Assembly: GCA_019347905.1 (NCBI GenBank)
Contig: JAHWKJ010000003.1
Coordinates: 1-39,705, forward strand
DNA: 39,705 nucleotides
Origin: Planctomycetota bacterium
Lineage (GTDB): Bacteria; Planctomycetota; Planctomycetia; Planctomycetales; Planctomycetaceae
Direction of reading: 5' to 3'
Positions 21,728 through 39,000 of this stretch are shown one piece after another. The translations under genes and the position numbers were made by a program. The first letter of the stretch is position 1. Each line of letters opens with the position of its first letter. The notes below the pieces were generated by a model, which was not told where the DNA came from, did not search any database, and was given only the letters and a program-made list of their open reading frames with translations.

Positions 21728-21740
21728 AAGTAGAATGTCC

Positions 21741-21813
21741 CCTTTTGCGGCTTCTTTTGCGGCTTTTTTGCGGCTTCTTTTGCGGCTTTTGCGGCCTTTC
21801 CCCTTTTGCGGCC
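21741..21813. repeat. Tandem TTTTGCGGC array
   Basis: Six copies of TTTTGCGGC separated by CTTC, TT or CCTTTCC lie between the SDR fragment and the BREX operon. It marks the border of the BREX segment. Related words form the inverted repeat at 18435-18517. Confidence 0.8.
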
Positions 21814-21825
21814 TCTACGACCCCG

Positions 21826-21850: not shown

Positions 21851-24163
21851 TCATATGGCGATGGCCCCCAACTCACTGATCACTTCTCCGATGAGTGGTC
21901 GGTTACCCGCGTCGTGATCGACGCACCGAACGATCAGCCTTCGCCATGTCGGATGCAGCACAAGATCACCGTCAGTTTGGCCGGTCAGCAAGAAAACGAG
22001 GATCTTGCCGAATGAATAGATGTCAGCGCTAGGTTTCGCTTCGGCGCCGTCGAATTGCTCTGGCGCCATGAATCCTGGCGTGCCGTATCCTTGGAAAGTC
22101 CGCTGCGTCATCATTCGCCCCAAGTTCTTAGAAATGCCGAAATCAGCCAGCTTCCAGCGACCGTGCAGCGCGAGCACGTTCTGCGGCTTCAGATCGCGAT
22201 GCACGATTGCATGGCCGTGCAGCTCACGGACCGCTTCCGCGATCTCCAAGCCGATTTGTTTCGCTTCCGTGACGGACACGCCTGAACCGTGCTGTTCTTC
22301 GACATAGCTCTGGAGGTCGCCACCGTCGGCGTACTCGGTGACCAAGGCGAAATAGTCGTCGTCACGCAGAAAATCGAGCACCTTCAGCACGCGCGTGGTC
22401 TCCGCGCGCATGAGCTTCTCGTAGATCCGCGCTTCGCGCTCCAAGGCCGCTTTATCGGTGGAGCGGCTGCGAACCCGCTTCAGGAACACCGTCTCGCCAG
22501 ACTCCCGGCTGCGGGCCATCCAGGCCTCCGCCATGCCGCCGGCCTGGAGGAGTTTCAGCAGTTCGTATCCACGAAAGACTTCGTTGCTGACGCCGCCGGA
22601 CACGTGCTCGACCGCCGCCGCCCGACCTGATATTCCCTCGAGCGGGACCGACGATTCGATGTGCTCCGGGCAGCGGACGGAGAGTTCCTCGCCGCTCGAC
22701 TTATCCACGAAAGTCAGGTCCGCTGTCCGGAATTCCCCGGGGTTGATGCGCCGAAGTTGCTCCTTCACCCGTCGCCGCATTTCCAGCGCAAACGTGAGGT
22801 ACTCGCACAACTCTTCCCGCCTGACCTCGCCGTCGGGATGGATCAACTTGACGAGCCCCGAGACCGTCCGCATCACGGCTTTCCGGTCACGATGGCCGAC
22901 ATGCTGTCCGAAGGCGAAGTGCCGCTCGTACAGATCCGTGTAGTTCAGCGGGCGAAGCTCGTTGTGAAGGATCTCGGCGATGTAGTCGGCGATGAAGCCG
23001 AGGTGCGACGTGAAAAGTTCCGGCGTCAGCTTTGGCATCTCCCAGCCCGGCAGGTACGCGTGCCAGCGGTCATGGAACGCGTCGTCGTCGCGGATCGTCT
23101 CCGGTAGCGGCGCGAAGAGGTGCGAAGTCTCCACGAGCGTTTCCACGTCGCCGTGCGTGTTGCCGCCGAAGACGATTCCCGCCTCAGCCGAGATCGTGCC
23201 CTTGTCGTCGCCGCGCGAGAACGAGCCCTGCTCCATGTAGCCCTTGTACATGTCCTTGTCGTTCGCCGATTTGAAATTTGGGCCGGCGATCTCGTCGAAG
23301 GCGACGACGTCGTACTTGACGACCAGCCCCGGCTTGTCCCGGCGGTTTTTCCACCCGAACAGATCGGTGACGCTCCCCTGCCCCCCGGACAACAGGACGA
23401 CGTACGGCGACACCTCTCGGTACACGAAGGATTTTCCCGTCTCCTTCGGCCCGAGTTCGACCAAGTTGTAGTTCCGTTCCACCAGCGGAACGAGGCGGAG
23501 CAGATACAAGAGCTTGCGCCGCCAGCTCAGGGCCGCCTGCGTCGGCTCGTAGCCGATCGTCCGCAAGAGCACGTTCACCCACTCCTCGCGCGAGAAGTGG
23601 CGGCGAGCCTCGACGAACTCGCCGAGATCCGCGCTGGCAATCTGGATCGGCTGCATGCGTTTGAGCACGAACGGACGCGTGACGCCGCCGTGGACGATCG
23701 TCTCGTCGAACGCCAGCTCCAGGTTGGCCCAGACGCCACCGGTCAATGTGCGTTCGTAGGTGTAGACGACGCGTTCGTCGATGTGCACCTTGTCGAGTCC
23801 GGACGTCGCGAACCGGGCCCAGTACTTGCCGCCTTGGTCCTTCTCGTCAAAGGTGACGGTGACCAGGTCGATCATCTTCATCGACCGGTAGCGCTGCAGC
23901 CGGGCCTTGACCAGCTCGTTCTGGTCGGAGCGGACGATCCGCTCCCGAATCATGTCCTTAACGCTCGCCACGCCTGCGTCAATCTGGTTGTCATCAGTCG
24001 TCGAGCAGTACTTCCCCAGCAGGTATTCCAGGACGTACACCGGAATGCTGAAGCCGACCTTCAGCCGCTGCACGAGATCCTTGCGGACCACGCGGCCGGG
24101 AAAGTGCTGGATCAGCTTGCGGTCGAGCGCATCGACCCAGCCTGGCTCTGCACCACTCGACAT
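21851..24163 (-). CDS. brxL: BrxL-type AAA+ ATPase fused to a Ser/Thr protein kinase
   Basis: 770 residues. Residues 1-505 are a BrxL homologue: the Lon-related BREX protein, a DNA-binding AAA+ ring needed for phage defence. Landmarks are KVGFSIPVYVLEYLLGKYCS (35-54), Walker A GPKETGKS (238-245), Walker B VVAFDEI (286-292) and FRTADLTFVDKSSGEE (478-493), where the ATPase core normally leads into the Lon-protease-like C-terminal part. That part is absent. Instead a full Hanks kinase spans about 533-770: a degenerate glycine loop (LLQAGGMAEAW), Lys562, Glu577, HRDLKPQN (655-662), DFG (674-676), APE (700-702) and Asp714 before SFG. One uninterrupted frame spans both halves. ATG 24163 follows GGAGAGG, 18 bases after pglZ. 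The gene ends the operon. The kinase target is unknown; BREX components or phage proteins are the obvious candidates (inference). Confidence 0.9.
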   Translation of the reverse strand: MSSGAEPGWVDALDRKLIQHFPGRVVRKDLVQRLKVGFSIPVYVLEYLLGKYCSTTDDNQIDAGVASVKDMIRERIVRSDQNELVKARLQRYRSMKMIDLVTVTFDEKDQGGKYWARFATSGLDKVHIDERVVYTYERTLTGGVWANLELAFDETIVHGGVTRPFVLKRMQPIQIASADLGEFVEARRHFSREEWVNVLLRTIGYEPTQAALSWRRKLLYLLRLVPLVERNYNLVELGPKETGKSFVYREVSPYVVLLSGGQGSVTDLFGWKNRRDKPGLVVKYDVVAFDEIAGPNFKSANDKDMYKGYMEQGSFSRGDDKGTISAEAGIVFGGNTHGDVETLVETSHLFAPLPETIRDDDAFHDRWHAYLPGWEMPKLTPELFTSHLGFIADYIAEILHNELRPLNYTDLYERHFAFGQHVGHRDRKAVMRTVSGLVKLIHPDGEVRREELCEYLTFALEMRRRVKEQLRRINPGEFRTADLTFVDKSSGEELSVRCPEHIESSVPLEGISGRAAAVEHVSGGVSNEVFRGYELLKLLQAGGMAEAWMARSRESGETVFLKRVRSRSTDKAALEREARIYEKLMRAETTRVLKVLDFLRDDDYFALVTEYADGGDLQSYVEEQHGSGVSVTEAKQIGLEIAEAVRELHGHAIVHRDLKPQNVLALHGRWKLADFGISKNLGRMMTQRTFQGYGTPGFMAPEQFDGAEAKPSADIYSFGKILVFLLTGQTDGDLVLHPTWRRLIVRCVDHDAGNRPLIGEVISELGAIAI

Positions 24164-24181: not shown

Positions 24182-26677
24182 TCACCAGTCGCTGATCTCG
24201 ATCTTCAGGATGACCTCTTCTCGCGTCAGCAGTTGTTCATCGTCGGCATCCTGAACCTCGATGACAAGTGATGTGCCGTAGGGAAGATCCGGCCGAGGCT
24301 CCACGAGCACGAGGGGAACGGCTTTCGCAGTCGTGTCAGGCTCGACGAGTACGGGATCGGTGTGCCTGAAGACGAGTTTTCCGGCGGCTGGATCCTTCAC
24401 TTTCACCAGGACCCGCCGCGCCAGCAGGTTGCTTTCCGCTCCGAACATCGTCCGCTGGTCGGCGGCCGCCTGGACTTCGACTCGCGGTGCCTCGCTGGTG
24501 ATGTGCCCGACCGGCTTGAGCACGACGCCGATCTTTCGCGCCTTCGCGGGCCACGTCGCGACGACGACCGGCACGATCGCCTCCTGCAGCGTCGCCCCGC
24601 CGTGAAAAAACCCTAACGACCCATACGTGCGGAAGGCGTTCGTGCCGCGGGGCACCACGACCTGCAGATCCGAGCAGGGGACACGCAGCCGCACCGCCGT
24701 CGCGTGCGACAGGTTTCGGCCGACCACGGCGCGGCGATGCGTCCACAGCACCTCGCCTGTGGGCAGCTCCTCCTCGATATCGTGCTCGTCCGGCTGCCAG
24801 TGGAAGAACCCGTGGTCGCTGACGACGATTACGCGATGGAAGCCTGCGTCGCGCAAGCGGTGAATCGCCTGTACGTACCGGCTCAAGTGATCGTCGGCAC
24901 CGGTGAGCTCCAGCCGGCCGTCATGGCTGTCGAGTTCGTTCCCGTGCACGGCAATCACTCGCCGCCTGGCGGAGGCCCTCTTCAGGCTGCTGCCGTCCAG
25001 CACCTCCTCGATCTTGAGCCAGTCCCGGATCTCCAGGGTCTCCTTCAGCCAGCTCCGCCGTTTGTCGGCGCGCCCCAGGTCGCCGTCAAAGCCGGCGGCC
25101 GTTACTGAAAACGACTTGCCGTCGGCCGACAGCGCCACCGCGAGCTTCTCGCGCTGGATGGGCAACGCGAACGACATGCCCAGGGGCGTGATCGTCGGGA
25201 CCGGTGCCACGGCGGCCGAGACGCTCGCCCGCCGCGCCGGCTCGCCCTGATTCAGCAGTCCCGACAACCGCTGGCCGAGCTCGAATCGGCAGGCGTCGAC
25301 GAACAGAATGGCCGTCGGCACGATCTGCTGTTCCAGCTCTCCCAGCAGCAGCTCACCCGCCGTGGGCAGCTCAAACAGCTTGTCCGGCTCACGTGCCAGC
25401 AGCTCTGAATGCGCCCGGCCGACGCGGTCCATCGTCCGCAGATAGCCCCGCCGCAGCCGGGCGCGGAGCCGGACAAGCTGCTGCGGCAGCTCGGGTTCTT
25501 CGACGAACAGCCGCTCGCCGGCCTCATCGAGCCGCCAGCCCTGCGCAACGTACCAGTCGATGGCGTGCCGGACCGACTTCCACGCCTCCTCCACGCCGCC
25601 GTTCTCGACGATCAGGGCGGCAGCTCCGGCCAGCTCGCACAGGAACCGCCAGCCCACGGGCCGGGCGGCCAGCCGGCCCCAGAAGCCGCTCTCTCGCTCC
25701 TTGAAGGTCTGAGCGCCGCGTGCCAGCGCGTCCACGTCCTCCAGTCGCTCGAGCTGATCGACCGCCTGGTCGAACAACGTCTGCTCGACGATCCGCGAGC
25801 TCCGGGACCGCGGCGGCGCGGACAGGTTCCGCGCCCAATACACCAGCCCCGTCGTTCTCTCGGCTTCCGGGACAAGTTCCTCGAAGCTGGCAAGATACGT
25901 CACGTAATGCTGCCACTGCTTCAGCAGGTTCAGCGCCCGCTGCCGCGCCAGCCCGGGCGGGATGATCTTCTCCGGCTCGCGGAGCGGCTCCCGAGGCGAG
26001 CCGTCACTGGCGTCGGTACACAACACACACGCCGTCGCTGCAATCCGCCACGATCTTTCTGATTGGCCGGCGGGATCGGGGAAACCGAAATCCTCGGTCG
26101 CACGGCGGACGAAGAAATCGAACCGCCCTTCCGCCCGGAGCCGCTCGAACTCTCCTTCCGGCCCGGCCAGCACGTCGAGCATCCGGTGATCGCCAACCAG
26201 CGTGCCTTTGGCATTCGCCGGTGTAAGCTCCTTCCAGGTCTCGCGCGGTTTGTCGAACCATTCCCGCGCCTGTGCCGCGAGCAGCCCATCAAGCTGGCCC
26301 TCGTCATCCCGCGAGACGTCGACGCCGTATTCCCGCAGGGCGTCGAGCAGCGGGCGCTGCCAGACTTCCTCGGCCTGCAACTCGAACGGTTTGAACCACG
26401 TGATCCCCTCGCGCGCCACCGGCAGCCAGACGACGCGCGGCGCCGGCGGCGTGCGATAGAACCGGTCCCGAACGATCAACTCGTGCTCGGCCTCATGGCA
26501 CGACGCCGGTGCCCACAATTCAAACGCGTTGGCTTCCGCTGCCATTCGCAGCAGCTCGAGCCATTCGCGATCGGGATCACACCATACGAGGAGCGGCGGT
26601 GGGGCCGACTGGCGGCCGAGGACTTCGCCGATCGTCGCACAGAGCCAGCTCCGAAAGGTGGTCGACGCCGTACTCAT
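24182..26677 (-). CDS. pglZ: BREX protein PglZ (alkaline phosphatase superfamily)
   Basis: 831 residues, the usual size for BREX PglZ, a core component required for both host methylation and phage exclusion. The PglZ domain occupies the second half: the metal-binding segment ILFVDACRFELG (457-468), VIVVSDHGFFHW (616-627) with Asp621 and His622, and the family signature HGGATLQEAIVPVVV (692-706). The N-terminal half carries helical regions and an opening LLVWCDPDREWLELL motif also seen in this family. It starts at ATG 26677, 27 bases after the DUF4276 gene, and is followed after 18 bases by brxL, the normal type I BREX order. Confidence 0.93.
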   Translation of the reverse strand: MSTASTTFRSWLCATIGEVLGRQSAPPPLLVWCDPDREWLELLRMAAEANAFELWAPASCHEAEHELIVRDRFYRTPPAPRVVWLPVAREGITWFKPFELQAEEVWQRPLLDALREYGVDVSRDDEGQLDGLLAAQAREWFDKPRETWKELTPANAKGTLVGDHRMLDVLAGPEGEFERLRAEGRFDFFVRRATEDFGFPDPAGQSERSWRIAATACVLCTDASDGSPREPLREPEKIIPPGLARQRALNLLKQWQHYVTYLASFEELVPEAERTTGLVYWARNLSAPPRSRSSRIVEQTLFDQAVDQLERLEDVDALARGAQTFKERESGFWGRLAARPVGWRFLCELAGAAALIVENGGVEEAWKSVRHAIDWYVAQGWRLDEAGERLFVEEPELPQQLVRLRARLRRGYLRTMDRVGRAHSELLAREPDKLFELPTAGELLLGELEQQIVPTAILFVDACRFELGQRLSGLLNQGEPARRASVSAAVAPVPTITPLGMSFALPIQREKLAVALSADGKSFSVTAAGFDGDLGRADKRRSWLKETLEIRDWLKIEEVLDGSSLKRASARRRVIAVHGNELDSHDGRLELTGADDHLSRYVQAIHRLRDAGFHRVIVVSDHGFFHWQPDEHDIEEELPTGEVLWTHRRAVVGRNLSHATAVRLRVPCSDLQVVVPRGTNAFRTYGSLGFFHGGATLQEAIVPVVVATWPAKARKIGVVLKPVGHITSEAPRVEVQAAADQRTMFGAESNLLARRVLVKVKDPAAGKLVFRHTDPVLVEPDTTAKAVPLVLVEPRPDLPYGTSLVIEVQDADDEQLLTREEVILKIEISDW

Positions 26678-26704: not shown

Positions 26705-27331
26705 TCAAAGCCCCGCCGCCTTTGCCAGTTCAAGAAGCTCCGCGAGCATCGCTCTCAGATAAGGGCACTTGTCTGCCGCAACGTTCGGGTCGAGTTTCGC
26801 GAACAACTGCTTACCGTAGGTTGTCTTCTTGTAGCTCCGCCGAGTTGCCTGGCGGTAGATCCGATCCAGAAGTTTCGCCGGAGGCTCGTCGAAGTTGATC
26901 GTCTCCGGCAGGGCGATCTTCTTCGGGAACGTATCCTGGACGGCGCGGGGGAAGATCTCCGGCTGGCTCAGGAGCCAGGCCTCGAACTCGTGCACGGCGA
27001 AAAACATCCGGAATCGTTCGAGCCCCAGGGCCTCTGTAAAGTGCGCCACGGCCCAGTCATATCTGTCCTGCGCCCCGGTGATGTGCTGCGGATAGAAGTT
27101 CGGTCCGTACAGGTCCAGCAGGGCGACGACCGCAATGATCTCCGTTTGCCGCGGACCGTCCAGATGCATGCGAGCCCGATCCGCCATCTTTCGGGCCAGC
27201 TCAGAATACCCTTCGAAGTGAACCATCTGGATCCCGACCGGTTGGCTCAATCGCGGATCGAGCCACCGCTTCAGGAATCCGGCCGCCGACTCCTTCTCGG
27301 TTCGGCCCTCGGCGAGCATCACGAACTTCAC
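26705..27331 (-). CDS. DUF4276 family protein, Toprim/RloB-like
   Basis: A 208-residue protein. The opening MLAEGRTEKE (with Glu in the xxEGxTE pattern), the LLDLYG segment and the FEAWLL block are the marks of DUF4276, which is related to RloB and Toprim-like nucleases. These genes typically follow an AAA ATPase, as here. GTG 27331 overlaps the TGA of the ATPase gene (GTGA), so the two are translationally coupled, with GGAGG inside the upstream gene as ribosome binding site. By analogy with OLD/AbiL/PARIS-like pairs, the ATPase probably holds this effector in check; that is inference. Confidence 0.85.
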   Translation of the reverse strand: MKFVMLAEGRTEKESAAGFLKRWLDPRLSQPVGIQMVHFEGYSELARKMADRARMHLDGPRQTEIIAVVALLDLYGPNFYPQHITGAQDRYDWAVAHFTEALGLERFRMFFAVHEFEAWLLSQPEIFPRAVQDTFPKKIALPETINFDEPPAKLLDRIYRQATRRSYKKTTYGKQLFAKLDPNVAADKCPYLRAMLAELLELAKAAGL

Positions 27332-28584
27332 ACCATCGCCTCCAGTTCTTTCGACCGGTAGAGCTCGCCCAGCGTGTACTGCTGAAGCCAGTAATCCACC
27401 TCATCTCCCGAAAGCACCCGCAGCTCCGTCTGGCCATTCCGCCACTCGACAACCGTTGTCGTCGGCGACTCACCCTCGAAAGCGTCGAGCAGCTCCGGCG
27501 AATGCGTCGTGAGAATAACCTGCGCACGCTGGGACGCATCGCGGGCGTATTCCGCCACGATCGGCAACATCGAAGGATGCAGCCCGGTCTCCGGCTCGTC
27601 GATCGCGATCAACGGCGGCGGCGAAGGGTTAGCGAGCACAGCGAGCAGAAACAGAAACCGGAGCGTGCCATCCGAGAGATCCCCAGCCGACTGCTCGCGC
27701 TGCAGGCTGCGCCAGCGGATCCGCAGTTGGATCCGCTGGTCGGCCGCCGGTGGAAAGACGAGCTCTTCGAAGTCGTCGCCGAACGCGGATTGCATCGCCG
27801 TGTTGACTTCCTGTTTGAAATCGCGACTGCCGGTATACAGGCTGTGCAATACGGAGATGAGGTTCTGGCCATCGGCACTCACCTGCGATTCCGCACGCGT
27901 GACCTGCGGGGCGCGGATGGAAGCCTGCCGATGCGTCTGAAAATCGTGGTGGATCTTCCACGCGGCGATCTCCTGCTGAAACGCGGCGACGAAACGGTTC
28001 GCGGCAAACGGGCCCGAAGCGAACGACAGCAGCGTCTCACCTTCCGGAAGGGACTCCGCCGCTGCTGAGATGGCCTGACCACGTGCGGGTTCTGGAGTTG
28101 TCGTAGTCGTCGTCGTCGGAACGGACTCGAATCGCTGCGCCTTCGTTGAATACACGACTGCGTGGCCCGGATGTCGCTCAAGCAACTTGAACGGCTCGGT
28201 CATCTCGCCGCTTTCGACGCGAGCAAAGTTTCCGAGAAGCTCATGCTCAATCCGGAAGGCGCTGGAGACGCCGAGTTGTGCGATCGCGATTTCGTACGTC
28301 AGGGCATCCGTGGCTGGATCGGTGTACGGCGGGAGCGGCGTCATCCTGGCTCGGATGCGAATCTCTCGGGCCTGCCCGTCCCAGACCAGCGGGCCCATGC
28401 CGCCTTCCTGCTGAATATACGAGCCGAGTCTCCCGGCGGCCGCGGTGCTCAGCATCTCCAGGACGCGCAGCAGATTAGACTTGCCGCTGGCGTTCGGGCC
28501 AATGACAACATTCAGGTCGCCGGGCCGCCACGTCTGTGACTTGAGTGAGCGGAACCCTTCGACTTCGAGCTGGATGATCTTCAT
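27328..28584 (-). CDS. AAA_21 (OLD/RecF-like) ATPase of a two-gene defence module
   Basis: 418 residues from ATG 28584, chosen because AAGGGAGGA precedes it and the protein then begins MKIIQLEVEGFRSL, the normal start of the family; the 33 in-frame codons upstream lack this. Walker A is GPNASGKSN (29-37). The signature segment AGDLSDGTLRFLFLLA is followed by Walker B LIAIDEPETGLHP and the switch histidine in ILTTHSPELLDAF. A run of seven Thr (VPTTTTTTTPE), from a near-perfect trinucleotide repeat around 28098-28120, interrupts the middle. It is coupled by a 4-base overlap to the DUF4276 gene. The pair sits between pglX and pglZ, a position where BREX loci often carry extra defence genes. Confidence 0.88.
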   Translation of the reverse strand: MKIIQLEVEGFRSLKSQTWRPGDLNVVIGPNASGKSNLLRVLEMLSTAAAGRLGSYIQQEGGMGPLVWDGQAREIRIRARMTPLPPYTDPATDALTYEIAIAQLGVSSAFRIEHELLGNFARVESGEMTEPFKLLERHPGHAVVYSTKAQRFESVPTTTTTTTPEPARGQAISAAAESLPEGETLLSFASGPFAANRFVAAFQQEIAAWKIHHDFQTHRQASIRAPQVTRAESQVSADGQNLISVLHSLYTGSRDFKQEVNTAMQSAFGDDFEELVFPPAADQRIQLRIRWRSLQREQSAGDLSDGTLRFLFLLAVLANPSPPPLIAIDEPETGLHPSMLPIVAEYARDASQRAQVILTTHSPELLDAFEGESPTTTVVEWRNGQTELRVLSGDEVDYWLQQYTLGELYRSKELEAMV

Positions 28585-28639
28585 CTTCAATCCTCCCTTG
28601 GTGCCATCCGCGGCAGCGCTTCTGACGCCCCAAAGTGCG

Positions 28640-30658
28640 TTACAGATCCACTCCCAGGAATCGCTTCTCCGGGATCGCCGCATCCAGCACGGGGTCCAGG
28701 AGCCATGGCGGCCGCTGCAACTCGACCGCCGGCGGTTCCGTCGTTGTCACGATGTACTGAAAGGCCGGCTCGGTCCCTTCGCCGCCGCAGCCTTCAATCA
28801 TACGCACCAGCCGGAACAATTTGCGGTAAAGGTCCGCGGACATGTCGGAAGCCCGCGGCCCGTCGTGGATGAGAATCCGCGGATGGCAGCCGTAACCCTC
28901 AATGCTTCTTACCAACGCCGTCAGATCGAAGGCAAGATTCTTGACGATGCGGATTGCGGAGCTACGGCGCTCACCGCGACAGAATACGGTCAGGCCGATG
29001 TCGCGCCCCGAGAACGATGCCCGGCCTACGACTTCGCGTCCGAGCAGGGCGCAAATGAAATAGTCGAACTTTTCCGAGAACGCTCGCATGGCCTGAGTAG
29101 CCGCCATGCGCAGCTCCTCTTGCCGGCGATTCGACCGTCCAATCGCAGCTTCGAGCTGCAAATCCTCAGCCTTGAGCTGTTCTTCGTCTGTGCGTGCCGA
29201 CGCGACGTAGCCAGCCAGCCGTCGCAGGTTCGAAATGTGGGCTTCCAGCCCTGTCGCATGACGAATCGTCTCTTTCTGAGTCCGTCGTGCCGTCGCAACC
29301 GCATACCTGGCTGCCTGCGTCTCCCGTGATCGCGATGTCAGCTCGGCCTGCTCCTCGCGGAGACGACCCTCAAGGGAACGAAGGATCCGCTCAACCATCT
29401 CCGCCCGCTCGTCCAGGCCCTTCTCGGCATAAGCTTGGACGAACTGCGCAGGGCGGGAACTCACCACGGGGCATCCCGCCTCACGGGCCACATCCACCGG
29501 AACGTTACAGAAACCGGATGACGGTCCGAGACTCTCCTTGAATGCCAGGCGCTGCGCCTCGGTGATGGTCCCGCGCAAGCTTTGCAGTTCCGCGCGCTTA
29601 TCCTCGAGTTCCCGCGTGATGTTTCGGACAACTGCCGCCTGTGCTCCCTCCTCTCGTATGGCAGTCTCCAGTGCACCCTCCAAAGCACGAATCGCTGGCT
29701 CACCGACTTCGTCGCGTTGCTGCGCCCGGAGTGCGGTGGCGAGTTCCTCAATGGCGTTGTCACACGCTTCCCGAAACAACCCGTCCTCGACCGGCGGCAG
29801 TTCGCCGCCTAGCTCAACACGCAGCCGCTCTCGGTCGACCTGAGACTGGTGTGCCAGTTTCGGAAGCTCAGCTCGAATGGCTTTCCGTCGACTGAGACGC
29901 TCCTCGTTCTCTCGTCGCTCCCGATCCTCTTCGTCGGATACAAGCTTCAGCAGAGCTCGCAGCAGCAGGTGCCGCTCTGTTGCATCCAGTTGCGGCGATC
30001 GGGAATCGGTTGAGGCATCTCGCCATTCGATCAGCCGATCGAAGTGGCATTCCTGGTCCCGCGCAATCCATGGCAGCACGTGATCCCACAGGATTGGACC
30101 GCGCGAGGCTGAAAACTGCCTCACGGGGAGATCTCGCAACGCAGCACTCGCCAGCGCATCGAGGTACTTATCGAAATCCAGCCGCTGAGCATCGGGATCC
30201 AGTGCCTCGGCGATGATTGAGGTCCGGAGTGCGAACGGGTGCGCGCCGACCGCGAAGGGACGGCAAACGACCCATGGGTCATCATCGATGAATACATGCG
30301 CGACAACCCAGCCGCGTGGAAATCGGACCCGGACCTCGGCCCGCAGAAGCTCGTCGCCGAAATGCGCCTCGCCGAGAATGTGTCGCAGGAACCTGCAGAA
30401 CGTTGTCTTTCCGGCCGCATGACCGGAGAGACTGTCTTCAAACAGCCCAGTACCTTCGGTTTCGCCGTCGGCGGGTTTTGCCCACAGGATGTTCATGCCC
30501 CGGTGCAAAACAACCCGCCGGACCAGGTGTTCCTCCGCGTCGCTGAGTTCGCGCAGAACCCGCAGTTCCTGAATCCAGACCGCCGGTGATCTCCGGTGGG
30601 GATCCGGGATGATCCGCGTATCGGCATCCATTTCGATGAGCCGAAGCTGTTTCTCCAT
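28640..30658 (-). CDS. SMC/Rad50-like coiled-coil ATPase in the BREX operon
   Basis: 672 residues. A P-loop SGHAAGKTTFCRFL (78-91) lies near the N-terminus, a long charged helical region (about 230-515) is predicted to be coiled coil with a short break containing CNVPVDVAREAGCPVV, and the C-terminal half-site has RILIHDGPRASDM (594-606), resembling the Walker B/D-loop region of DUF2326-type ATPases from ABC-three-component systems. The exact family is uncertain. ATG 30658 lies four bases after the pglX stop; 55 bases separate its stop from the next ATPase. It may be a BREX accessory or a separate defence gene lodged in the operon. Confidence 0.75.
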   Translation of the reverse strand: MEKQLRLIEMDADTRIIPDPHRRSPAVWIQELRVLRELSDAEEHLVRRVVLHRGMNILWAKPADGETEGTGLFEDSLSGHAAGKTTFCRFLRHILGEAHFGDELLRAEVRVRFPRGWVVAHVFIDDDPWVVCRPFAVGAHPFALRTSIIAEALDPDAQRLDFDKYLDALASAALRDLPVRQFSASRGPILWDHVLPWIARDQECHFDRLIEWRDASTDSRSPQLDATERHLLLRALLKLVSDEEDRERRENEERLSRRKAIRAELPKLAHQSQVDRERLRVELGGELPPVEDGLFREACDNAIEELATALRAQQRDEVGEPAIRALEGALETAIREEGAQAAVVRNITRELEDKRAELQSLRGTITEAQRLAFKESLGPSSGFCNVPVDVAREAGCPVVSSRPAQFVQAYAEKGLDERAEMVERILRSLEGRLREEQAELTSRSRETQAARYAVATARRTQKETIRHATGLEAHISNLRRLAGYVASARTDEEQLKAEDLQLEAAIGRSNRRQEELRMAATQAMRAFSEKFDYFICALLGREVVGRASFSGRDIGLTVFCRGERRSSAIRIVKNLAFDLTALVRSIEGYGCHPRILIHDGPRASDMSADLYRKLFRLVRMIEGCGGEGTEPAFQYIVTTTEPPAVELQRPPWLLDPVLDAAIPEKRFLGVDL

Positions 30659-30662
30659 CTCG

Positions 30663-33600
30663 TCATCCTGCGATCAGCAGTCGGACCGCCTGCCTGTCCT
30701 CCTGGGTTCCAAGCTCCTCGGCAGCGACCTCGGGCAATGAGTCCACAACGGCCAGCGCGAGCTGAGCATCGGCGATCAGCCACGGGTCGCTGGGACGAAT
30801 TCGATCGGCATTTATCAGAACCGCCACCCCATCTCGGAGGCGTGCGTGGTCCAGCCGCTCACGATTGAGGAGATCGAGGATTGTTTCGCGAAAGTACCCC
30901 GCGGCAGGCGACTCACAGAACGACGCAGCCCAAGCGACGGCGAGGTTCTTCAGGTCCCGCGGCGCCCGGTCAACGAGCTGCTGACGCGACACCAGAAGCG
31001 AGTACGCGCGCACGAGGCGCATGAGATCGCTCGATCCATCGCTGTTCCGCAGCATCGCAATCAGAACAGCGGCCGGATAGAGTGCCGGCTCACCAAACGG
31101 CCGCCGCTGCTCTTGCGGAAGAGCAAACCTCGGCGCTCTTTGTTCAATCTCCGGCCACCATCCCGGCCGCGGCAGCTTGCCCTCCCGCACCCAGCGCCGC
31201 TCATCGGCGCGCCATTCGGCGCGGTCGGCGATCGCCTTATCCACATCTCTGCGGTTCAGAACGTCGGCCGCCAACACGCCGGCCTTCTGGAGCGGGGCAA
31301 TGTTCACCCGGACGCCGTCGTTGATGTCCGGGACATAGGCCGATTCCTGGCGGACGAACTCCGAAACCGTCTGCGGCGGCGGTCGGCGGCCGTCGAGGCT
31401 GGCGACCTCGTCGTAGAGTGGCTGCTCCGCGAGCCACGGCTCCCAGCCGGCCGCCTCGGCGCACGACCAGGACTCGATCTCGTTGCGCACGCCCTTCGCC
31501 CGGGCGGTCCGGTCGCGGACCTGGCGGTTCAGATCGCAGATCTCGGCCTTCAGCTCCTTCGAGCGGAGCTTGAGCTCGTTCAGCTCCTGCCGGGGCGGCG
31601 GCGGGTCGGTCGAGATTTCGGCCTCGCAGTCGGCCAGGTCCGCCTTGCGGGCCTTGATGTCGGCCTTGATTGGGGCCAGCACTGTCGCGTCGAACCGCTT
31701 CCACCAGACGTCGCAAGACCCTTCAAGCGCGCCTTCGACCATCGCCTTGGCCTCGCGGCAGATGATCGGCGCCAAGTCGGCCGCCGTCGGCTCTTCGGGC
31801 AGTGCCGCGGCTTTGGGCGGCTTTGGGCCGACGGCGGCGCAGTGGTGGTCGAGCCGCTCACAGGCCTCGGCGATCCACGAGCCGAGGTCCGGGTGCAGGT
31901 CCGCGCGGGCGGCGGCCCACAGCCACTCGTCGAGGACGTTGCGCCTGACCGTCTCGCTCAGCCGCCGCAGCCAGTGGGCCTTGAGCGCCAGGCAGGCGTC
32001 ATCGATGGCGTACTGCCGGAGCGTCCCCTGGAGCTTTTCGGGACCGAAGCCGCAATCGATCACGTCGGCCAGCTTCGTGTCGAGCGCTTTGAGCTCCTCG
32101 AGTGTCTCCAGCAGCTCCAGCCGGCGGCCCTCCTGGCGGTCGCTGCGGACTTCGGCGGGGACGGCGAGGACACCCCGCAGCTCGGTCTCGTGCCGTTGCC
32201 GCAGGACCCCCACGTACTGCGTGCGGATCTTGGGCAGCAGGTCGCCGTCGAGCCGGTGATAATAGGCCAGGCAGGCGAACGCGGCTGCTCGGCGAGCGGT
32301 GAACGTTCCCGACTGAATCTGCCAGGCGATGGGGCGCTTCTTGAACTGGCTCGCGTGCTGCTTGAAGAATTCGATGGCGAGCCAGGCATCGAGCAGCTTG
32401 CCCATGACTTCGGCAAAGTCGCCGGCGTCGATCTCCTCAGCCCTCAGCCGCTCCTGGACTCGCTCATCCAGGGTCGATTCGTTGGCGAATGGGGTGAGCG
32501 GGATGATGCCGTCCGGGTCGGCCCAGTCGGGGACCGGTTCGCCGGCTTCGATCTGTTTGGGCCAGCAGTGGCCGAGCAGGCGAAGTACCGTGACAGTGAT
32601 GCGGTCGGCCCACAGCCGGCGTTCCTCGGGAAGGCAGCGCCAGCCTTCGGTTTCGATCCCTTCCTTGAGGAGCCAGTAGACGGAGATTGGATGGATCTCT
32701 AGTCGCTGTGACAGTTCTTCAAGAAATGAGTCCGGTGGTATAGCAATCCGCGCACCGACAGCTAATGCCTCACCTTCATCTTCATCTTCATTGACTGACT
32801 GGTCAGGCTCAGGTTGGGATCTGCCAAGGGGCCCGGCACCGAAGTGCGTTCTCAAATGAGAGCGAAGCAAATCAAGCTCTGCACGTTCTAACGTACATCG
32901 TGAGTGGTCGATGAGCCTTGCGAGTGCGTCTTCCGGGAGCCTGATTGAATCGCCAAGCGACGGTGGTTGGTCGTACGAAGTGAGCAACGGATACCAACCG
33001 GAAGGTGTCCCAGTCTCGTAAGTGACCTCCATAATAGCAGCTTCATTGAGTTGGAACGAGCTAACAACAGCTCGCTCAAGACAGGCCGCGACAGTGTGAC
33101 GCAAAGCGCTAATGCACGCCAAACGAAGAGTGAGCTCTTGCCTAAATGGCGTTGCGCATTCGAACGTGATGTCAGTCATTTCGCGGCAGCTGATTTCACA
33201 CGCCTTGCATTCGCGGGCAGTGGTTACGAGCGGTTGGCAGCCAAGATGCGAGGGCCAAGGGAGTAAGGGCGGATAGCCTTCCGAGAAGACGATCTTCTGG
33301 CTGAGCGACCGAAGAAGATAGGTAGCAACGCGCGAGTTAAGAAATGCGGCAGTGGCCGATGTAACTAATGAAGAATTGAATAACGGGAAAACTCCACTGC
33401 TGATGTTTGTGAAGATACTGCCGGGATATAAATATCGTAATCCCAGAGACCCTGATGCGACCTGGGCATACCAATATCCTGAGCGGCCGTAGAATTGTTC
33501 ATTACGGACAACGCTCGGGGGAAATGCTTTGACGCGCGCGCCGTTATACTCCCACTCGACTGTAAACGTGTTTGGTCCCCACCATCGCGAGTAGCCACCT

Positions 33601-34484
33601 CCGTGGGCTGCAGGTCGCCATCGGTCGGTATGACCTGCTTCCCAGACTGTGCGTATGAATCGCTCCTTATCAGCCGTTGCAAGCCCTTGGCGAATGGACG
33701 CGAAATTGCCAAGACGCTTGTCCTGCTTTAGCAACGCAAAGAAGTCCTCGCGCAAGTAGTACACAAGTGGAGCGCTGGGAATGCCCACGAAGTCACTTTG
33801 AGCAGGATGTGAAACGGCTGCTTCGAAGTTACCGGAGATTGCCTGACGAAGTAGAGAGGATTGTTCGTCACAAACTCGAGGGGAAGCTAGCCGACATGCC
33901 CAGAGCCTATGCAGAGTGGATGGCGGTTGCATGCCCAGCGTGAAGAGCAGTGGCGCAACGGCTGCATTGCCAATCTCCGAAAAGGCGTATCGTCCGAGAT
34001 GCACGAGGGTTTCTAGGGAAGTGTCGACGACCAGACCACGAAACGAATCACATCTCGTTGGCTGAGAGGCATGGTGATTGACAATTCTCAATTGGGCGAA
34101 CGCACGAAGGAACATCCACGACTGCTGGGTCACCATTGCCACCCGGCCGCCCCCGGCAGCGAGTTCCAGATTGCGGAGAATGAATGCGGCGTACATATCC
34201 CGCTTGGCGGGCTTGAAGTTCCGCTCGACGTACTTCTTGAGCGCTGGCCCCATGTTCTTGCTGCCCATGTACGGCGGATTGGCGGCCACCACGTCGTAGC
34301 GCTGGCTGAGCAGGTCTACCAGCCGGAAGCCAGCGCGAGTTTCAGCGCCGAGCAATTGATCCAGAAACTCGCCCGATTCGCGCGCCCGCTCAGTGAAGGC
34401 GTCGATGGCTGCCTTCGCGCGGTAAAAGAGCCGGTCGCCAAACCCTTCGTCAGAAATCTCGTGGAACGGCAACTGGCCGCGCAA
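30663..34484 (-). CDS. Open C-terminal piece of PglX after the TAA
   Basis: If translation restarts (TTG 34484 is the first plausible codon; 14 further in-frame sense codons lie between the TAA and it), 1273 residues remain open. They include YDVVAANPPYMGSKNMG (methyltransferase motif IV), the target-recognition region, and a long extension with DGIIPLTPFANESTLDERVQERL, a predicted coiled coil (around KADIKARKADLADCEAE and QELNELKLRSKELKAEI) and a helical C-terminal 170 residues. It lacks SAM motif I and could not methylate alone. Whether it is expressed is unknown. The stop TGA lies four bases before the SMC-like ATPase start. Confidence 0.6.
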   Translation of the reverse strand: MRGQLPFHEISDEGFGDRLFYRAKAAIDAFTERARESGEFLDQLLGAETRAGFRLVDLLSQRYDVVAANPPYMGSKNMGPALKKYVERNFKPAKRDMYAAFILRNLELAAGGGRVAMVTQQSWMFLRAFAQLRIVNHHASQPTRCDSFRGLVVDTSLETLVHLGRYAFSEIGNAAVAPLLFTLGMQPPSTLHRLWACRLASPRVCDEQSSLLRQAISGNFEAAVSHPAQSDFVGIPSAPLVYYLREDFFALLKQDKRLGNFASIRQGLATADKERFIRTVWEAGHTDRWRPAAHGGGYSRWWGPNTFTVEWEYNGARVKAFPPSVVRNEQFYGRSGYWYAQVASGSLGLRYLYPGSIFTNISSGVFPLFNSSLVTSATAAFLNSRVATYLLRSLSQKIVFSEGYPPLLPWPSHLGCQPLVTTARECKACEISCREMTDITFECATPFRQELTLRLACISALRHTVAACLERAVVSSFQLNEAAIMEVTYETGTPSGWYPLLTSYDQPPSLGDSIRLPEDALARLIDHSRCTLERAELDLLRSHLRTHFGAGPLGRSQPEPDQSVNEDEDEGEALAVGARIAIPPDSFLEELSQRLEIHPISVYWLLKEGIETEGWRCLPEERRLWADRITVTVLRLLGHCWPKQIEAGEPVPDWADPDGIIPLTPFANESTLDERVQERLRAEEIDAGDFAEVMGKLLDAWLAIEFFKQHASQFKKRPIAWQIQSGTFTARRAAAFACLAYYHRLDGDLLPKIRTQYVGVLRQRHETELRGVLAVPAEVRSDRQEGRRLELLETLEELKALDTKLADVIDCGFGPEKLQGTLRQYAIDDACLALKAHWLRRLSETVRRNVLDEWLWAAARADLHPDLGSWIAEACERLDHHCAAVGPKPPKAAALPEEPTAADLAPIICREAKAMVEGALEGSCDVWWKRFDATVLAPIKADIKARKADLADCEAEISTDPPPPRQELNELKLRSKELKAEICDLNRQVRDRTARAKGVRNEIESWSCAEAAGWEPWLAEQPLYDEVASLDGRRPPPQTVSEFVRQESAYVPDINDGVRVNIAPLQKAGVLAADVLNRRDVDKAIADRAEWRADERRWVREGKLPRPGWWPEIEQRAPRFALPQEQRRPFGEPALYPAAVLIAMLRNSDGSSDLMRLVRAYSLLVSRQQLVDRAPRDLKNLAVAWAASFCESPAAGYFRETILDLLNRERLDHARLRDGVAVLINADRIRPSDPWLIADAQLALAVVDSLPEVAAEELGTQEDRQAVRLLIAG

Positions 34485-35995
34485 TGCGTCCTCGCGAAAC
34501 TCGGGGAAGAGGTAATTGGCCTCCCGTTATTCGCGGACCTGACGCTCCCAAGTCGCGTGCTCCTCGCGGATGATCTCGCGGAGGTCCTGCGCCGGCCGGG
34601 CCAGGCTGCCGATCTCGTCGATATGCTCCATCGTCTGAGCGAACTTCCGCAGGACACGTGCGACAGACGGCTCCTTCTCGAACCCGGCCAGAAACTCCTC
34701 CCACGCCGGCCCCTTCAAGTGGCTGGCGGTGGCCGCAACGAGGTTCGTCGCCGCGCCGGCGTAGTCGAACGCCCGCTCGGCGGCCTTCATCCACAGTGCG
34801 ACCTCGGCGATCTGCACGCTCCGCGGGTCGATGTCGATGCCGTACAGGTTCCGCGTCAGGATCGCGTCGCAGATTGCGTCTGGTTCGGTCAGCTCACCTT
34901 CTTCCTCGTACATCGCATAGAACAGGTCGAATGCCTCCAGCAGAAAGTGCCCCGAGCCGCAAGCCGGGTCGAGGAACGTGATCTCCCGGACTGATTTGTG
35001 TTCGACCGGCGCCCGGTCGGCGTCGCGGACGTAGTACTCCCATTCGTCGCACAGCTTCGACTCGGGGTGCATGCCCATCCACGTCGCGCCCAGCGAGTTC
35101 TGCACGAGGAACCGGACCATGTAGCTTTCGGTGTAGAGCTGCGTGGCGGGCACGATATCGGCGCCTTCGATCTTCGCCCCCTTCTTCGTGCGGACTCTCT
35201 CGAAGACGCGGTCCTTCTCCTCGGTGTTCCAGTACTGGTAGGCCCAGCCCAGCGCATCGGAGCGCTGAACAGTCCGGCCGGGCCGGCTGACGTGACCGTC
35301 GCGTCCGGCCCGTCCGGGGCACCCCCGTGCGGCTCGTTCTCCTGGGTCGCGCCGCGCGGCTCCGGCTCGGCCGCCGGGCGGATGCGGTACTTCTGCAGCG
35401 TCACGGGATGGAGGCTCACCAGGCCGAAGCAGTCCAGGAGCGCCGCGGGCGACGGCCGCAGCGCCACGCCCGCCGCCTCGGCTTCGAACAGCAGCGGAAG
35501 CTGACGCGCCCGCTCGCGAAACACCTGGTCCAGGAGCGCGAAGCGGCCCTCGTCCTCGCCCGCACACATCTCGGGTCGCCGCTGCGCCAGCCGGTGGTGC
35601 TCCAGCGAGCGCCCGCCGTAGACATCCTTCTGGAGGATCACCTCGTCGATCAGCCCCCGCGCTTCCATGCACCGCAGCGCCAACAGGCGATTGGCCCAGG
35701 TATAGGCCGTCTCGCGGAGGAACTCGCCGATCGCCTCGGCACGCTCGACGCCGGCCTCACGGCGGACGGCCAGGTACGCATCGACCACTGTGCGGGCCCG
35801 GCGGTCCTCGGCGGAGATGTGCTGCGGCAGCTCGTCGCTCGGCACCGGCTCGCGGTCGCGGCGAACGCCCAGCCCGGCCAGCCGCTGCTCCAGGTCGCCC
35901 GGCTGCCAGTTCCCGTCGCGGTCGTAGCGGCCTTCGAGCAGGTGCCGCAGTTCGAGGACGATGGCCTTGAGGAGTTTGCGTTCTGCGGGCGTCAT
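30663..35995 (-). pseudogene. pglX: BREX adenine-specific DNA methyltransferase PglX, broken by a frameshift and a stop codon
   Basis: PglX methylates adenine in the BREX host motif and is required for both self-marking and defence in studied systems. It starts at ATG 35995 (MTPAERKLLKAIVLELR), 16 bases after brxC. The N-terminal frame runs to ...AGLFSAP; one missing base at about 35256-35260 shifts the frame, after which DALGWAYQYWN continues in the next frame. This middle part holds SAM motif DPACGSGHF and NLYGIDIDPRSVQIAE. It meets an in-frame TAA at 34527-34529; the same frame resumes immediately as REANYLFPEFREDALRGQLPF and contains the catalytic NPPYMGS. Corrected, the protein would be about 1777 residues, long for PglX (commonly about 1200). 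Bases about 32690-34150 have lower GC and match the target-recognition part. Sequencing error cannot be ruled out, but two independent lesions make a real pseudogene likely. Confidence 0.88.
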
Positions 35996-36011: not shown

Positions 36012-39000
36012 TCAACGAAGTTCCACGTCACAGCCGCCGCCGAGGAGCCGGCACACGTGCTCGTCGAGCTTGCGGTTGAGCTGCTGCCACTCATCGAGCG
36101 TGGACACGCGCGTGACCGTGGCCACGTCGGTCATGCGGACGGTGCAGACCTGGCGCGAAGGCCGTGCGCCTTCGCCGGGCGTCGTCCCGCTGCCTGTGGT
36201 GGTCTGCGCGCGGCGGGCGGCGTGCTCGGCAATCCGGCGGCCAAGCTGCACTACGAGCTGCCGGGCCTGATCGGGAAATGCCGCGACCTGCGCGGGCAGG
36301 GTTGCGCTGTCGAGCTGCTCGCGCAGGTTCCGCAGCGGCTGGGCCAGATTCGACTCCAGGGTCGCATCGAGCTGTCGCTCGGCCAGCTCACCTGGCAGCC
36401 GCTCCAGCACCTGGTCGAGGATCCCGCGCGCCTCACATCGCCAGGAATCGAGCACGGGAGCCAGTTCGAGCTGCGCCTGGGCCTTGCGACTCTCCAAGGC
36501 ATTCCACACATCGCTTTCGGCGAAAGAGGCGGCCGCCCGTGCCGCGCGATAGTCGCCGAGCAGCTTCGCCAGGGGCGATGCGGCGTCAAGCCGGTGCTCG
36601 ACCGCTTCGAGATGCGCGACGAAGTCGCTTAAGTCTTTGAAGAGAATCGCGTGCTGCTGCCGGAACCGGGCGTGCCGCTGGATGGCCTCGCGGCCGACCG
36701 CGAGCGTGTCCTGCCGGGTGTGGATCTCGTTGACGCGATGGACGGGGTTTGTCAGCTCGAGGACGATGTTCCAGGCGTCGTGACCCTCGCTGAAAGCGGC
36801 CGGCAGCGGCATCCCGGAACCGGCCGTCCACAGCCTCACGGCTTCCGCCTGGGCGAGCACGTCGCGTCCGAGCTGGTCGGCGGCGGCGGCCAGGGCGGCG
36901 GGAGTCTCGTCGATGTTGCGGGTGCGGGCCAGCTTCATCAGGAACTTTCGGGTCTCGGTGAGGACCTCGGGATCGACCTCGCCCTCCTCCAGAATGAGCT
37001 GCGTGCGGTCGAAATTGCGGGCGACGCGGAGCGCGTCGACGACGTCGCGGTCGGCGGGGTTCGAGTACTCCTTCTGGCCGATCGAGAGCTTCACGTTACC
37101 GCCTCGGACGAGCGCCGCCACGCCAACGCGGACCGCGTTGGGATCCCAGCCGTAGCCGATCCCGCACAGCGTCTCCAGCAGGTCCTTACCGTGAACGCGC
37201 TTGCCGTCCTTCTGTGCGGTGGCAAGCTGGATGCGGATGGCATCGAGCAGGGGCGCGTGCAGGTCCACTTTGCCGGCCTTATCGAACAGCCTGAGCGCCG
37301 CGAGTTCGCGGGTCGTGTCGGTCTGGCCGGCGAGGACGTCCTGAATAGCTTTCTGCTCGTGCGTGATGCGGACCGGGACTTTCTCGAACCGGGGATACAG
37401 CGCGGGCCAGCAGGCGGCCATCCCGCCGCGCAGGGCGCCGCCGGAGGTCTGGCCGGGCTTCAGCCCGAGCAGCCGGCTCATCCCCTGGAACACGAGGTGT
37501 CCCGTGCGCAGGCCCTCCTTGAGACCTTCGACCACGCGGCGTTCGAGTTTGACCAGATCGTCTGTTTCGCGCTGCATCGCGAGCTGCCGGGCCTCTTCGG
37601 ACTTCCGCGGATCGCCTTTCCAGTTGCCGATCACCTCCTTGACGGCCAGAAACCGGGCGAGGTCCCGATCGAACGCGTTCACGCGTCCGCACAGGAAGAA
37701 GATCGTGTTCTGGTCTTCCGAGCGCAGGCTGCGGTTCTCCAGGTCGGCCAGCGTCACGCGCCCGACGGACAGCGGCGTATACAGCTTGAGCGTCACGTCG
37801 CCCTTCGTGCCCGTCACAGGATGGTCGTCAACCATCAGTTTGAAATGGAACTCGTGGTCACGGTACGACACCACGTCGGAGTCGAGCCAGCGCCGCCAGG
37901 GCGTCTTGCCTGACTCCTGAATGAAGTTGTCGCGAAGCCCCCGCTCGCGGTCCTGCAGCATGTACTGCTGCTCGGTGGTCGTGACTTCTTCTTCGAACGT
38001 GCGCTTCTCGCCGGTGAGGAACTCGAACTCTTCGCCGATAGGGGCCACCAGCCCGGCCGCAATCAGCCGCTCCAGTTCCGGATCGATCCGCGCGAGGACG
38101 GCCGGCAGGTCGTCATCGGCGCTTTCGACGAGCAGCCGGGCGATGTTGTCCCTCGTCCGCGGAATGAACGATAGCTCGCGGATAAGGTACAAGACCTCGG
38201 CGACCCGGGTCGTCAGCGGCGTCGCGCCGGGCACGGTGTCTTTCAGCCGCAGCAGCTCCGTGCGCACGTCAGGGCTGATCTCGCCTTCACCGGCGAGATT
38301 CGCGTAGAGCTCGTCGAAGCTGACCAGTTCTCCCAGGCTCTCCTGGAGGTAGCGTCGCCGCCCGGCGCGGAGGATGTCCTGGGTGATGGCCAGCAGCGTG
38401 CGCGTCGAACCCGACATCTGCTCGCCGCGGCCGCCCTTGGAGCGGAGCGACTTGACGATCTCGGGCACGACGTGGACCTGCCACGGAAAGAACGGGTAAT
38501 ACGTGGCGAACTTCTCTTTCGTGCAGGCGGGGAGCGTGCGGCTGGCGACGTTCGCCGGTTCACCCAGGCCGCGAATGACGCCGCCCCGCCGCTCGTACAG
38601 CTCCTCGACGGCATCGTGTCCGGCAATGCTCTTGCGGAACAGCCGGTCCTCGAGCACCAGTTCGATATTCTCGGTCGTGAGGGCTGGCTTGAAGCGGAAC
38701 CGGCCTTCGATCTTCTTGAAGTCGCTGTCCAGCGCGCGGGCTTCCTTGTAGATCGAGCCCATGTCGCCGTGGGTCGTGACGACGATCCAGATGCGGCCCT
38801 GGCCCCGCAGGGCGGCGTCTTCGACCAGGGCCTGGAGCTGCGAGAGGCGGCTGGAGTCGTCTTCGATCCACTGGCCGGATTCGTCGAGGACGAACAATAG
38901 CCGCTGGGCTTTCTTCCGCTCCGCCTGGCGCTGCTCCATGTCGCTGAGGATCGTGTCCACCAGGAATCGCACATTGTGCAGCTCGCCGCTCTCGGCCTCG

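Follow-up and report, generated by a model that had tools for sequence, protein, structure and literature searches.

In the Type-1 bacteriophage exclusion (BREX) systems of E. coli and Salmonella, deletion of brxX/pglX abolishes both methylation and defence (PMC6326788, PMC11341690). Natural loss or variation of this gene is already recognised: a partial pglX lies beside an integrase in L. rhamnosus (PMC7513527), and homopolymer variation occurs in brxX (PMC6326788). The 39,705-nucleotide sequence analysed here (the window) forms contig 333 in the draft assembly of a planctomycete-like bacterium (6.18 Mb in 779 contigs, 94% complete), and carries pglX within a Type-1 BREX operon that is otherwise complete. 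The gene was broken by two separate lesions. We consider it, with a probability of about 0.7, a recent loss-of-function pseudogene, which is ordinary recent gene loss and not a new mechanism.

The pglX gene was read on the reverse strand from an ATG at 35995–35993, just after the brxC stop codon at 36014–36012, to a stop codon at about 30663, and its full-length equivalent was about 1776 residues. The first lesion was a frame break, one base short of the relatives. The upstream frame (MTPAERK... to ...AGLFSA) was kept up to and including 35261; from 35258 onwards the sequence read DALGWAYQYWN... in the downstream frame. The break was located at the boundary between the N-terminal helical bundle and the methyltransferase domain, at about residue 212 of E. 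coli BrxX by alignment. The second lesion, an in-frame TAA, was located in the variable linker between the S-adenosylmethionine (SAM) motif I (DPACGSGHFL) and motif IV (NPPY). An alternative genetic code for TAA was rejected, as other genes of the window terminate in TAA. Programmed frameshifting was also rejected, as no slippery motif was present and the TAA would block translation regardless.

Relatives identified in a genome scan and in a whole-genome search were compared by tblastn. The order was represented by 170 genomes, none of them from a strain of the same genus; the nearest relative had 46% identity. In intact relatives, a contiguous motif of the F.APD.LGWAYQ.W type, F.APDALGWAYQYWN, crossed the frame-break site in one open frame. 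L005, L017, L018, L019, L022, and others (41–50% identity) were open at both lesion sites, and no relative contained a stop at the TAA position. The lesions of pglX were thus disabling changes at positions where relatives are open, as in a pseudogene. The first-pass annotation had described a BREX pglX broken by a single-base deletion at about 35256–35260 and by a TAA at 34527–34529, and had proposed a comparison with related genomes; the relatives, the PADLOC, NCBIfam, and Pfam matches, and the codon usage all agreed with this description.

Codon-usage log-odds, which are independent of homology and were trained on other genes, changed frame at about 35260 and remained high before as well as after the TAA. 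The lesion scan covered the window and 81 sampled contigs of the same genome (82 sequences, 654 kb), and candidates outside the window (~614 kb) were judged by eye. The switch at 35263(-) was the top frame switch of the 654 kb, with 51.8 nats and no start codon nearby. When stops were ranked by the coding score of the next 14 codons, the one at 34529(-) was the strongest internal stop, with 20.4 before it and 21.3 after. Only two other lesions were accepted in the other ~614 kb, one frame break and one in-frame TGA, and most weak candidates were ordinary gene overlaps or antisense noise. The frame break affected a DUF1501-like gene close to its 3' end (L052, G000:C304, ~2905–2958). The TGA was found within a coding region at L096:10193 (G000:C328; ...GEKRLRE, stop, RWEPSVEF...), possibly at a cysteine position.

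At two lesions per 614 kb, about 0.02 would be expected in a gene of 5.3 kb. Therefore, evenly spread assembly noise is an unlikely source of two lesions in pglX, even at a several-fold higher rate. This low background argues against general assembly noise, but not against a local problem. An assembly or consensus artefact, due to mixed strains in the contig or to low local coverage, with pglX intact in the living organism, is unlikely overall, and in its local form ranks next after recent loss of function. Two independent types of lesion occurred in pglX and none in the rest of the operon, neither site was a homopolymer, and frame breaks elsewhere were very rare, with about one clear case in 614 kb. 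Several points weigh against a genuine loss. The genome is a draft of 779 contigs, in which errors can cluster locally; the scan had limited sensitivity and missed some lesions, so that the background rate is a lower bound; and no decay was visible in pglX or in its protein conservation beyond the two lesions. The draft state and the lack of further decay also speak for an artefact.

PglX retained 130 of the 137 positions that are invariant in 13 relatives, within a range of 0.89–1.0 for the other relatives, and its C-terminal half retained 167 of 179. The damage is therefore recent, or not real. As a measure of relaxed constraint, this comparison would show no trace of a recent event. The third-codon-position G+C content (GC3) of the target-recognition region was lower than on either side, and the same dip was found in the contiguous relatives profiled, as expected from exchange of this region between lineages.

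If the lesions are genuine, the loss of one base would cut off the N-terminal bundle ahead of the methyltransferase domain. The nonsense codon would leave the SAM-binding motif on one side and the catalytic NPPY motif, with the target-recognition region, on the other. No full-length PglX would be made; the product would be three fragments, split inside the catalytic core. Type-1 BREX is characterised by asymmetric 6mA methylation of the host. PglX is needed for methylation and restriction in the studied Type-1 systems, so the strain is predicted to lack BREX methylation and BREX defence. The earlier expectation that loss of the methyltransferase abolishes both functions is in line with those systems (PMC6326788, PMC11341690). 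The second lesion probably arose after the first had lifted selection.

A split but working enzyme, made by reinitiation into fragments that assemble, is very unlikely. Several relatives naturally encode PglX as two polypeptides, the last fragment of 1273 residues was open and long in the list of open reading frames (ORFs), and a candidate restart, a TTG at 34484 with a GAGG five bases upstream, could yield these residues. However, the natural split is elsewhere, at about residue 755 of the read-through protein, with coupled stop/start overlaps that were absent from both lesion sites. The TAA cuts within the methyltransferase core, and with neither a start codon of the new frame near the frame break nor a slippery motif, the first junction would be unbridged.

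A phase-variable switch, by which pglX would be revertibly off in this cell line, is the least likely of the explanations considered. A homopolymer tract is known in brxX (PMC6326788), but no homopolymer of at least 4 bases, tandem repeat, or inversion arms were found at either lesion, no inverted arms enclosed a segment of pglX, and the genome contained no silent copy. With these results, none of the routes by which pglX is known to become phase-variable is left (PMC6326788, PMC11341690). In addition, both separate lesions would have to revert, and a substitution-type TAA is not a switch. Among the three causes offered by the first-pass annotation, genuine recent loss therefore fitted best, the phase switch had no support in the sequence, and sequencing error was disfavoured by the low lesion rate. 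Selection against BREX as such was not shown, as plain relaxed constraint would look identical.

The gene set of Type-1 BREX (brxA, brxB, brxC, pglX, pglZ, and brxL) was present, and BrxC, PglX, PglZ, and BrxL were recognised by NCBIfam, PADLOC, and Pfam. In relatives, brxA and brxB precede brxC; in this genome they ended contig G000:C152, with the brxB stop codon at its very end, which fits the end missing from the window, where brxC opens. Judged from sequence, the six core genes make up a complete Type-1 BREX, with the adjacency of brxA/brxB to brxC deduced and not sequenced. The claim that every other gene is open held for the operon genes in the window, and brxA and brxB, on another contig, were open too. 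Since its PglX methyltransferase was interrupted by the frame break and the TAA, the locus was filed as a Type-1 BREX with a broken methylase, and not as a working system. A genome search found no second pglX copy in this genome. The other Eco57I-type enzyme (C106) was rejected as a spare PglX, because it is DrmMI/IIG-like and has a helicase and DarTG as neighbours. This second defence locus (L046, G000:C106) contained the 1555-residue DrmMI/IIG-like methylase, an SNF2-type helicase, and a DarTG toxin–antitoxin pair. The coordinates of the features are given in Table 1.

Table 1. Features of the BREX operon in the window and split PglX loci of relatives.
Feature	Position	Strand	Evidence or remark
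brxC, intact to contig end	36012..39704	(-)	NF033441 585 bits
pglX, disrupted by two lesions (BREX-1 PglX/BrxX adenine methyltransferase)	30663..35995	(-)	PADLOC and NCBIfam PglX matches to pieces; Pfam Eco57I, MmeI_Mtase
Frame break in pglX, one base short versus relatives	35256..35263	(-)	tblastn relatives, codon usage, lesion scan, E. coli BrxX alignment
In-frame TAA in pglX (WERQVRE, stop, REANYLFPEF)	34527..34529	(-)	sequence reading, tblastn relatives, lesion scan
Predicted first product, native N-terminal bundle of 245 residues and ~123-residue out-of-frame tail	34889..35995	(-)	ORF list
Target-recognition region of pglX, foreign-looking codon usage	32700..34100	(-)	GC3 ~0.5 versus ~0.85 either side
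672-residue protein between pglX and pglZ, no family assigned	28640..30658	(-)	profile searches; weak LmuB matches only
AAA_21 / MAD3- and HEC-01A-like ATPase	27328..28683	(-)	profile searches
pglZ, intact	24182..26677	(-)	PADLOC, Pfam, NCBIfam
brxL, C-terminal Lon-like domain replaced by Ser/Thr protein kinase (residues ~516–730)	21851..24163	(-)	profile searches, sequence reading
Split PglX locus	L020:4756-12763		
Split PglX locus	L021:8525-14819		
Split PglX locus	L033:4719-12748		
Split PglX locus	L032:67-6315		
Split PglX locus	L029:2668-7921		
Split PglX locus	L039:2449-6287		
Split PglX locus	L041:326-5250		

The two genes between pglX and pglZ (27328–30658) had a lower GC3 than the core genes, and a relative of the AAA_21 ATPase occupied the same place in L022. 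Irregular GCCGCAAAA repeats were found directly downstream of brxL (~21735–21815). In another Planctomycetota draft, pglX, pglZ, and brxL of a BREX relative (L023, L024) appeared to contain stops or frame breaks, which would mean either wholesale decay or a poor assembly.

Residues 1–506 of BrxL were normal, and the N-terminal and AAA+ parts matched Pfam BrxL_N and BrxL_ATPase. The C-terminus was a protein kinase with HRDLKPQN, DFG, and APE motifs, apparently an active Ser/Thr kinase. A BrxL protein is expected to combine SIGMA-HTH/OB and MCM-like AAA+ parts with a Lon-like or HKD C-terminus, and a 2026 survey reported only Lon or HKD C-termini in Type-1 BrxL (PMC12839542); here this position was taken by the kinase. 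The expectation is not strict, since Type-4 BrxL has no C-terminal extension. The C-termini of the other BrxL proteins that were read were Lon-like, and in searches across the order and the phylum the alignments of all other BrxL matches stopped short of the kinase. It is very unlikely that the operon was kept because it still works without methylation, with the BrxL–kinase fusion and the extra pair of ATPase and 672-residue protein reusing BREX parts for a defence independent of PglX.

In the seven split loci of Table 1, the cut in pglX always fell at the same conserved point, following HRLTAFRLIGPKSPEEKD.LLR, and a separate ORF encoded the recognition half of PglX. The genes between the halves were of HEPN, nucleotidyltransferase/HepT-like (MNT), helix-turn-helix (HTH)/IrrE, and ParA- or AAA-type, several of them with 4-base stop/start overlaps, and were thus toxin–antitoxin-like or ATPase genes in several relatives. 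L025:8447-16592 contained a full-length PglX, an antitoxin-like/PIN pair, and then a second C-terminal (recognition) half, possibly a spare specificity cassette. In L036:8297-11607 and L037:891-5065, the N-terminal half of PglX was directly followed, up to the contig end, by RAMP-like genes (Cmr/Csm-type, CRISPR type III), of which the L036 gene alone was scanned; no C-terminal half was seen before the contigs ended. Split PglX was unmentioned in the text of the 2026 BREX survey (PMC12839542). A current review treats the recognition domain as integral to the BREX methylase (PMC12707154), in contrast to the separate specificity gene of these relatives.

With the methylase gene broken and the remaining operon intact, the locus is a natural BREX methylase knock-out, in which the persistence of BREX genes in the absence of the methylase can be studied. 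The BrxL–kinase fusion and the relatives with split PglX are of larger value than the loss of pglX.

In the split relatives, the specificity half of PglX had a gene of its own, like HsdS of Type I restriction systems. When the locus was compared with other BREX loci with an inactivated or phase-variable pglX, the shared pattern was that pglX varies or breaks and the rest of the operon stays, whereas this locus lacked an integrase, an inverted repeat, a second copy, and a homopolymer, and had only a plain deletion and a nonsense codon. As in Type-1 BREX, the six core genes were in order, PglX and PglZ scored best against BREX-1 models, and BrxC was above its family cut-off. The differences from Type-1 BREX were the broken pglX, the two extra genes between pglX and pglZ, and the BrxL kinase in place of a Lon-like C-terminus. 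The neighbouring ATPase and the kinase domain also gave sub-threshold matches to MAD3 and MAD6 of the methylation-associated defence system (MADS); however, these scores were far under the family cut-offs, and the core of the operon was BREX.
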